From contig JAICNG010000036.1 of assembly GCA_025931335.1 (NCBI GenBank), positions 1-32,185 of the forward strand: a stretch of DNA of 32,185 nucleotides. The letters run 5' to 3'. Under the pieces are notes generated by a model that was not told the DNA's origin, searched no databases, and saw nothing but the letters and a program-made list of their open reading frames with translations. Position numbers and translations under genes: made by a program. The DNA comes from Gemmatimonadaceae bacterium (GTDB lineage: Bacteria; Gemmatimonadota; Gemmatimonadetes; Gemmatimonadales; Gemmatimonadaceae). Positions 14,212 through 15,851 of this stretch are shown piece after piece. The stretch's first letter is position 1. The number at the start of each line of letters is the position of its first letter.

Positions 14212-14718
14212 ATGCTCGGTACACGGACGTTCGCGAGGCTCGCGCTCGCCGCAAGCCTCACTGCCGTACTCGGTTGCGACGACGACCCCACCGGCCCAGG
14301 CACGGTTACGTTCCCGGAACTGCCGGCGGCGGTCGTCACCGGGTTCTGCGTGCGGGGGACCGCGCTCGTCGGTGACACGAAGTCCGGGATCATTGCGGAC
14401 ACGGACTGCGACGTCGCGGACATCAATCCCGGGGACGTGGGGTATTACGAGATCTGGCGCGTGCGCGTCGCGACCGCGCAAGATGTCACCTTCGATGCGA
14501 ATTCGACGTTCGACAACTTCCTTGCGGTGCTGCGAGTCAACTCCGTCTCCGCAACGGATATCGACGCCACGGTCATCGGACAGAACGACGATCGCTCGCC
14601 AGGCAGCAATACCAACGCGCTCGTGACGGTGAGGCTGCAGCCCAACATCGACTACGCCGTCATCGTGTCGGGCTTCGACTACGAAGAGACGGGATCGTAT
14701 TCGCTTGCCATTCGGTAG
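14212..14718 (+). CDS. Small lipoprotein, unknown function
   Basis: The 168-residue protein starts with a lipoprotein signal (LALAASLTAVLGC, lipobox cysteine at residue 22) followed by DDDPTGP, a mature N-terminus I associate with Gemmatimonadota lipoproteins. The rest is a beta-rich extracytoplasmic domain with features of pre-peptidase-like jelly rolls: VGYYEIWRVRV, FDANSTFDNFLAVLRV, GQNDDRSPGSNTNALVTV and a closing DYEETGSYSLAI. Function is unknown. GGAGGT lies four bases before the ATG. It precedes the histidine operon in the same direction, but a separate promoter for that operon is visible. Confidence 0.85.
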   Translation: MLGTRTFARLALAASLTAVLGCDDDPTGPGTVTFPELPAAVVTGFCVRGTALVGDTKSGIIADTDCDVADINPGDVGYYEIWRVRVATAQDVTFDANSTFDNFLAVLRVNSVSATDIDATVIGQNDDRSPGSNTNALVTVRLQPNIDYAVIVSGFDYEETGSYSLAIR

Positions 14719-14757
14719 TATTGTAAAGTCGGTGGACCGGCGGCCGCCAACGCGTAG

Positions 14758-14786
14758 TTGACGATCCCGGCCATTTCTCCTAGCTT
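14758..14786 (+). promoter_or_regulatory. Putative his operon promoter
   Basis: TTGACG at 14758-14763 is followed after 17 bases by TAGCTT at 14781-14786. Transcription would start about seven bases later, at or next to the leader peptide's ATG at 14794. No Shine-Dalgarno precedes that ATG, which fits a leaderless transcript. Confidence 0.5.
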
Positions 14787-14793
14787 GCGATCC

Positions 14794-14874
14794 ATGAGCA
14801 CGACCATTCGCCATCATCGCGCGCACCACCTCCACGGCCCGACGGGTCGGGGCGACGCGCGCGCATGCGGATGA
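14794..14874 (+). CDS. hisL: Histidine operon leader peptide (HisL-like)
   Basis: This short frame encodes 26 residues beginning MSTTIRHHRAHHLHG, so five of residues 7-14 are histidine (codons 7, 8, 11, 12 and 14). It ends at a TGA 80 bases before hisG, with a strong intrinsic terminator between. A His-rich leader followed by a terminator upstream of hisG is the textbook layout of ribosome-mediated attenuation: stalling at His codons when charged tRNA-His is scarce favours antitermination. It differs from the enterobacterial leader, which has seven consecutive His codons, by interrupting them with Arg, Ala and Leu. There is no Shine-Dalgarno, and the predicted promoter would start transcription at about the ATG. 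Translation is not proven, but the His density next to hisG is very unlikely by chance. Confidence 0.85.
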   Translation: MSTTIRHHRAHHLHGPTGRGDARACG

Positions 14875-14944
14875 CCGTGTAACGGCTCCTGAGCGCACCG
14901 TACGCTGCGGCCCGTCCCTCCCGGACGGGCCGTTTTTCTTTTTC
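14836..14944 (+). promoter_or_regulatory. his attenuator region
   Basis: Three mutually exclusive pairings are visible. CCCGA (14838-14842) pairs with TCGGG (14847-14851) just after the His codons. GACGGG (14841-14846) can instead pair with CCCGTC (14911-14916), which is the left arm of the terminator. The terminator itself pairs 14908-14917 with 14923-14932. These match the 1:2, 2:3 and 3:4 pairings of a classical attenuator. The terminator is clear by eye; the antiterminator is my inference and has only six pairs in its core. Confidence 0.65.
14908..14944 (+). terminator. Intrinsic terminator of the his attenuator
   Basis: CGGCCCGTCC (14908-14917) and GGACGGGCCG (14923-14932) form a perfect 10-bp stem with a 5-base loop, directly followed by a T-rich tract TTTTTCTTTTTC. 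It is the best-formed intrinsic terminator in the window, and it lies 10 bases before hisG, where it can only serve regulation. Confidence 0.92.
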
Positions 14945-14954
14945 GGTCACCCCC

Positions 14955-15851
14955 ATGCTCGAACGACGAACGACTTCGCGACTGCGCATCGCGCTCCCCA
15001 ACAAGGGACGCCTGACCGATGACGTGCGCGCACTCTTTTCCGACGCGGGGCTCGAGCTTCGCGCCGCCGGCGAGCGCGCGCTCGTCGCATCGCTCGGCGG
15101 CGACTTCGAGGCGATCTTCGTCCGGGCCCAGGACATCCCCGAATTCGTTGCCGATGGCGCGGCGGATGTGGGCGTCACGGGGTGGGATCTGGTGCGGGAG
15201 TCGGAGCGCGACCTCGAGTCGGTGCTCGACCTCGAATGCGGCCGCTGCCGGCTCGTCGTCGCCGCGCGCGAGGAGAGCGGAATCACCACCCTCGACGATA
15301 TCGCCGGCAACGGGAACGGCGGTCCTCGCGTCGCCACGGCCTTTCCACGCATCACCGAGCGCTACTTCGCCGACGCATGCCTTCCGATCACGATCGTGCC
15401 GGTGAGTGGGGCGGCCGAAATCGCTCCTCACCTCGGGATCGCCGACATCGTGACCGATCTCGTCTCCACCGGCTCCACCCTTCGCGTCAATCAGCTTCGC
15501 GAGATCGCGACCATCCTCGAGTCCACCGCCCGGCTCATCACGGCGCCGAACGTCGCGGAGTCACCGCGTCGGCGGGCGATCGAGGAGCTCGTCACCGCCC
15601 TCGAATCGGTGCTTCGCGCGCGCGGCAAGCGATACGTCATGGCGAACATGCCACGCGCCGCGCTCGATCAGGTGCGACGCGTGCTGCCGGGGCTCAACGG
15701 GCCGACGGTGATCGACATCCTGAACGGGGGCGATTTCGTCGCGGTGCACGCCGTCGTGGCGCAGGACGCGATCTATCGCACCATCGCCGACCTCAAGGCA
15801 CTGGGCGGGCAGGGTATTCTGGTCACGCGCATCGAGCGGGTGATGCCATGA
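14955..15851 (+). CDS. hisG: ATP phosphoribosyltransferase, long form (HisG)
   Basis: HisG catalyses the first and committed step of histidine synthesis, joining ATP and PRPP. The 298-residue length and a C-terminal ACT-like regulatory domain (about 220-298, with KRYVMANMPRAALDQVRRVLPGLNGPTV) mark the long homohexameric form, which is feedback-inhibited by histidine and needs no HisZ. Catalytic-domain landmarks are LRIALPNKGRL, VGVTGWDLV and the PRPP loop DLVSTGSTLRVNQL. No Shine-Dalgarno is visible before ATG 14955; the preceding bases are the terminator tail. It is the first structural gene after the attenuator and overlaps hisD by ATGA. Both transcriptional attenuation and enzyme feedback are therefore expected. 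Confidence 0.97.
   Translation: MLERRTTSRLRIALPNKGRLTDDVRALFSDAGLELRAAGERALVASLGGDFEAIFVRAQDIPEFVADGAADVGVTGWDLVRESERDLESVLDLECGRCRLVVAAREESGITTLDDIAGNGNGGPRVATAFPRITERYFADACLPITIVPVSGAAEIAPHLGIADIVTDLVSTGSTLRVNQLREIATILESTARLITAPNVAESPRRRAIEELVTALESVLRARGKRYVMANMPRAALDQVRRVLPGLNGPTVIDILNGGDFVAVHAVVAQDAIYRTIADLKALGGQGILVTRIERVMP

Follow-up and report, generated by a model that had tools for sequence, protein, structure and literature searches.

A predicted ribosome-mediated transcription attenuator on a probably leaderless mRNA precedes the his operon of Gemmatimonadota, Myxococcota and Eisenbacteria

The histidine operon in the stretch of DNA analysed here (32,185 nt, hereafter the window), from a soil bacterium of the Gemmatimonadaceae, is preceded by a short His-rich reading frame, alternative RNA pairings and an intrinsic terminator, which we hold with high confidence to form a ribosome-mediated transcription attenuator of the operon built on a leaderless mRNA. 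Leader-peptide attenuation is a classical mechanism. An earlier note on this DNA had proposed such an attenuator; given the frame, the terminator and the exclusive pairings found in relatives, no other reading fits nearly as well, and sequence comparison makes it very likely that the attenuator is real. A promoter and a leaderless layout had escaped the earlier note.

The features of the locus are listed in Table 1. hisG opens a hisG-D-C-H-A-F-N run, and its product is identical to the HisG of MAG OFX_bin.8. The short frame (hisL) carries tandem codons for the operon's own amino acid, with His at codons 7, 8, 11, 12 and 14, where the earlier note had placed them. The GC-rich stem of 10 bp reported in the same note was likewise recovered, with one extra pair: it consists of 10 Watson-Crick pairs plus a closing G-U (14907-14917 with 14923-14933), is followed by TTTTCTTTTT, and lies before the first structural gene, its T tract ending with the T at 14943, 11 nt upstream of the hisG start (14955). 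The alternative pairings in that account also proved real, namely a hairpin of 14835-14840 with 14844-14849 and a helix of 14841-14846 with 14911-14916; the latter extends to nine pairs (14841-14849 with 14908-14916), including one G-U. The predicted fold of the window leader was better than those of 200/200 shuffled sequences (z = -3.6). Only one terminator-like site was observed in 1.5 kb against a shuffle mean of 0.8, and the case is therefore made by comparison with relatives. Two further observations concern the locus itself. hisG has no visible Shine-Dalgarno site, in the window (14944-14955) as in relatives, and starts directly after the T tract. The window's own assembly also contains another his leader with a hisG (about 90% identical; L111, G000:C161), reflecting either a second operon or the inclusion in the bin of contigs from a related species.

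Table 1. Elements of the his leader region and first structural gene, in window coordinates.
Feature	Position	Strand	Basis
-35 element, TTGACG	14758..14763	+	read from sequence; TTGAC conserved in relatives
-10 element, TAGCTT; spaced 17 nt from the -35 and 7 nt from the start codon	14781..14786	+	conserved pattern in relatives
hisL leader peptide frame, 26 codons, MSTTIRHHRAHHLHGPTGRGDARACG	14794..14874	+	sequence and relatives
Arm A (CGCGCGC), within the His codon region; partner 14857-14863	14818..14824	+	MFE fold
Segment 1 (CGGCCC); partner 14844-14849	14835..14840	+	fold and alignment scan, RNAalifold, covariation
Segment 2 (GACGGGTCG), antiterminator 5' strand, in the PTGR codons of GPTGRG	14841..14849	+	frame comparison, helix 62-69:144-151, permutation test
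Arm B (GCGCGCG), partner of arm A	14857..14863	+	MFE fold
Segment 3, 5' arm of the terminator; alternative partner of segment 2 through 14908-14916	14907..14917	+	terminator scan and alignment
Segment 4, terminator 3' arm	14923..14933	+	terminator scan and alignment
T tract, TTTTCTTTTT	14934..14943	+	sequence and terminator scan
hisG, ATP phosphoribosyltransferase	14955..15851	+	NCBIfam TIGR00070 (4.9e-61); his genes downstream

We gathered hisG and its upstream DNA from related genomes and, after removal of duplicates, obtained 109 distinct leaders from Gemmatimonadota, Myxococcota and Eisenbacteria in which a His-rich frame lies upstream of a homologous hisG. A terminator accompanies the frame in all of them (109/109), with the core GGCCCGTCC..GGACGGGCC in most. 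Relatives devoid of both elements, which had been named as evidence against an attenuator, thus proved the exception: a single locus with the same hisG type and enough upstream DNA (L029) has neither. Another apparent His leader, broken by Ns (L003), comes on top of the 109.

Codon usage in these leaders follows the reading frame, with 665 CAY codons in frame versus 11 and 79 in the two alternative frames. Among in-frame CAN codons, 339 end in T, 326 in C and 34 in a purine; this even use of T and C, together with the in-frame excess of CAY, indicates that selection acts on the codon or amino acid and not on the bases. The peptide consensus of the family is HHH-A-HH-x-H-GPTGRG. The split HHRAHHLH pattern that the earlier note had singled out is therefore present, but it is the norm across the family. 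In 55 of 67 cases the codon that splits HH-x-HH is GCG, GTG or ACG, a bias that we read as a constraint imposed by arm A and that would explain the split His run.

An RNA model of the leader matched the window at 14794-14940 (9.4e-29), with no other comparable match there. It also matched 195 of 395 Gemmatimonadota genomes (E≤0.01), 72 of 195 Myxococcota genomes, almost always once per genome (E≤1e-4), and 7 of 47 Eisenbacteria genomes (E≤1e-4), counts in which the genomes that supplied the model match by construction and matches weaker than about 1e-3 are unsafe. Among the carriers is a strain of Myxococcus xanthus (L099). Where hisG is distant (about 35-40% identical), leaderless His leaders with other terminator sequences occur at roughly half of the loci examined. 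In the HisG tree the Myxococcota and most Eisenbacteria are nested inside the Gemmatimonadota with weak support, so that transfer between phyla is only suggested. Two records labelled Comamonas and Candidatus Kuenenia (L057 and L061) have HisG sequences that group with those of Myxococcota and Gemmatimonadota, and are probably mislabelled or contaminated. One genome has a second His leader on the contig that also carries the hisG leader (L133, G144:C210:21788-21941), located before a hisC-like aminotransferase gene.

The alternative pairings are conserved along with the frame. A scan of all column pairs in an alignment of 85 leaders returned as its top three helices 3:4, the terminator (columns 145-153:163-171, 98% paired), 2:3, the antiterminator (columns 62-69:144-151, 89% paired), and 1:2 (columns 54-59:64-69, 90% paired). 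These helices are mutually exclusive, as an attenuator demands. RNAalifold recovered 1:2 and 3:4 without any hint, and the two show covariation at nine pairs, with 42 cells changed on both sides, a level reached by 0/500 shuffles. Covariation of 2:3 within the main alignment was marginal (two measures: 96/500 and 17/500 shuffles), as both of its strands also take part in another helix, and from in-family covariation alone the antiterminator would be a marginal case. Two independent facts offset this. The bases of segment 2 (xCGGG[T/C]C) persist whichever of the three reading frames they fall in (71, 25 and 7 leaders), and they follow the last His codon at a nearly constant distance, mostly 5-6 nt in Gemmatimonadota and 13 nt in many Myxococcota. 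In addition, for 26 leaders with differing terminators, a set that includes Tyr, Thr and branched-chain amino acid (BCAA) leaders as well as leaders from a different hisG type, the cognate pairing of segment 2 with the terminator arm was beaten by 0/5000 permutations. In the main his family, duplex energies of segment 2 with swapped terminator arms did not separate cognate from non-cognate partners; the arms there are almost identical, which makes the swap informative only for divergent terminators. The His-codon region, too, pairs better with the 3' part of its own leader than with the corresponding part from other species (Wilcoxon p 1e-8).

The hairpin might instead control translation of hisG by sequestering its start, or simply end the transcript of the upstream gene, and not be a regulated terminator at all; the nearness of its T tract to hisG, and the overlap of this tract in some relatives with the region where hisG is inferred to start, would suit such a role. 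We judge this very improbable, since a T-rich tract follows the stem in 109/109 leaders and there is covariation between the antiterminator strand and the terminator arm; moreover, the promoter sits between the upstream gene and the hairpin, and hisG offers no visible Shine-Dalgarno site to sequester. Less probable still, to the point of being hardly credible, is that the His-rich peptide is itself the product, acting as a metal-binding molecule or a trans-acting regulator, with the RNA fold incidental. The peptide is conserved and His-rich, it carries the GPTGRG motif, and there is a precedent in the leader peptide peTrpL, which acts in trans (PMC7298713). Nevertheless, the bases encoding GPTGRG persist where the frame and the peptide change (SRAG, LRVG, DGT), and the regulatory residue becomes Tyr, Thr or a BCAA to match the downstream pathway.

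Upstream of the leader, about 94 of the 109 relatives have TTGAC at a distance of 34-40 nt from the start codon. The complete pattern TTGAC-N17/18-TANNNT is found in 74/109 leaders, at 5-10 nt from the start codon in 70 of these 74, and is practically confined to leaders, with 73 occurrences in 490 kb of loci; TANNNT is absent from its expected place in 28/109. Normal promoter geometry puts the transcription start here at the AUG or within a few bases of it. Shine-Dalgarno-like motifs in the -16..-5 interval occur at the level of chance (6/109 versus 3.2 expected). With this spacing, which leaves no room for a Shine-Dalgarno site, the predicted RNA start falls on the A of the leader ATG or no more than a few bases from it, and the leader RNA is probably leaderless. 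It would be possible for the attenuator to operate as proposed from an RNA that starts further upstream and has an ordinary 5' UTR, the TTGAC/TANNNT pattern being coincidental or a second promoter: a standard sigma-70 scan passed no promoter, a blank that we attribute to the weak -10 element TAGCTT, and the start at the leader ATG is a prediction from conserved spacing. An upstream start nonetheless appears quite unlikely, given that the pattern keeps a near-fixed distance to the leader in those 74 cases and is found practically nowhere else, that the -16..-5 interval has no Shine-Dalgarno signal, and that Tyr, Thr and BCAA leaders, as well as those of other hisG types, show this spacing again.

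From these elements we infer the following course of events. RNA polymerase would start at or a few bases from the leader AUG, so that a ribosome would have to load at the 5' end of the RNA itself. If no ribosome loads, arm A would pair with arm B, segment 1 would hold segment 2, and the terminator 3:4 would form. When His-tRNA is scarce, a ribosome would stall at the His codons, opening A:B and covering part of segment 1; the freed segment 2 could then capture segment 3 (14841-14849 with 14908-14916) while segment 4 is still to be transcribed, and with 2:3 formed the polymerase would continue into hisG. With ample histidine the ribosome would reach the stop codon and depart, 1:2 and A:B would re-form, and transcription would terminate at 14934-14943.

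We folded the 85 leaders with a ribosome masked at each codon. The mean probability of 2:3 was 0.37 both without a ribosome and with the ribosome at the stop codon, and rose to 0.85 at the most favourable His stall; the difference exceeded 0.2 in the expected direction in 54/85 leaders and in the opposite direction in none. In the window, the corresponding probability was 0.00 without a ribosome and 1.0 with the ribosome at His 7, 8, 11 or 12; it was 0.62 for a stall at His 14 and 0.82 for a ribosome at the stop codon. As 2:3 is still favoured in this last position, the off state of the window leader would need either release of the ribosome or kinetic folding, in which 1:2 closes once the ribosome has passed and segment 3 has yet to be transcribed.

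At gathering thresholds no Rfam model, the His_leader (RF00514) and T-box models included, matched the window or 16 loci. The search with the histidine leader model that the earlier note had suggested returned no RF00514 match in 14600-15100 even at E≤10. The Rfam matches seen at E≤10 were sub-threshold chance matches to unrelated sRNAs only. The element would therefore work like the enterobacterial his leader, with which it shares a His-rich peptide, alternative RNA pairings, an intrinsic terminator and hisG as first gene, but it is not a member of RF00514: its sequence is unrelated, its His run is split, its layout is a simple 1:2/2:3/3:4 plus A:B, it has no Shine-Dalgarno site and is probably leaderless, and segment 2 is coded within the leader peptide frame.

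A parallel in layout is the trpL attenuator RNA of Sinorhizobium meliloti (rnTrpL/peTrpL), which is leaderless, its 5' end being the ATG of its leader frame (PMC7298713), as is predicted here; that leader senses Trp and not His, belongs to the Alphaproteobacteria and has no known sequence relation to the present one. Leaderless poly-Cys short-ORF attenuators in mycobacteria (Canestrari et al. 2020, by its title as cited in PMC13236596) similarly appear to combine a leaderless short ORF, regulatory codons and control of a downstream operon, in Actinobacteria and with Cys. Candidate his attenuators of Firmicutes have three to five His codons with a terminator and an antiterminator upstream of his genes (PMC9413887); they belong to another phylum and are given per small clade, and the passages of that source describing them do not mention a leaderless layout. 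A 2010 survey, which predates these his attenuators of Firmicutes, stated that leader-peptide systems were known only in Proteobacteria and Actinobacteria, and added the Firmicutes (PMC2965389). A search of the open-access literature found no description of attenuators or leaderless RNAs in Gemmatimonadota or Gemmatimonas, or of histidine attenuation in Myxococcus. The present leaders would add Gemmatimonadota, Myxococcota and Eisenbacteria to the phyla with leader-peptide attenuation, in a compact layout in which the promoter fixes the start codon near +1 and the antiterminator strand lies within the leader frame. They should help to annotate hundreds of short genes that lack an annotation, predict the amino acid sensed for each operon, can be tested in a laboratory species, M. 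xanthus, and provide a natural readout for the translation of leaderless mRNAs in these phyla.

Weak matches of the RNA model in Gemmatimonadota represent the same architecture with different regulatory codons. Tyr-rich leaders precede genes for DAHP synthase and for a biopterin-dependent aromatic amino acid hydroxylase (PF00351), probably phenylalanine hydroxylase. When the neighbourhoods of the trpE, DAHP synthase, ilvB and aspartokinase genes were scanned strictly, six short frames had this promoter, 6/6 of them with a terminator; five are aromatic and one, before ilvB, is rich in Leu/Ile/Val. No leaderless Trp leader was found before trpE in 30 loci. The tally of non-His leaders is small (eight Tyr/aromatic, one Thr and one BCAA). 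We think it likely that a single design shared across Gemmatimonadota, a leaderless leader whose frame overlaps the antiterminator strand, serves as a general control for His, Tyr, Thr and branched-chain pathways, including attenuation of phenylalanine hydroxylase through Tyr codons, and that its his version passed between phyla together with hisG.

Individual loci illustrate this range. Tyr- or Tyr/Phe/Trp-rich leaderless leaders with terminators lie upstream of DAHP synthase genes (L134, L136/L182, L185, L190, L195 and L196). A leader rich in Leu/Ile/Val, with a terminator, precedes ilvB (L215, G069:C3), and the leader TTGTTTTTTT, with a Thr run, precedes a gene for an aspartokinase-type amino acid kinase (L138, G325:C92:51744-51898). 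Directly upstream of the aromatic amino acid hydroxylase gene, two Tyr-rich leaders with terminators contain YYAYSYAY (L131, G016:C6:596636-596797) and YRYY (L135, G034:C3:11154-11295); attenuation of the formation of Tyr from Phe, as these two suggest, would be unusual.
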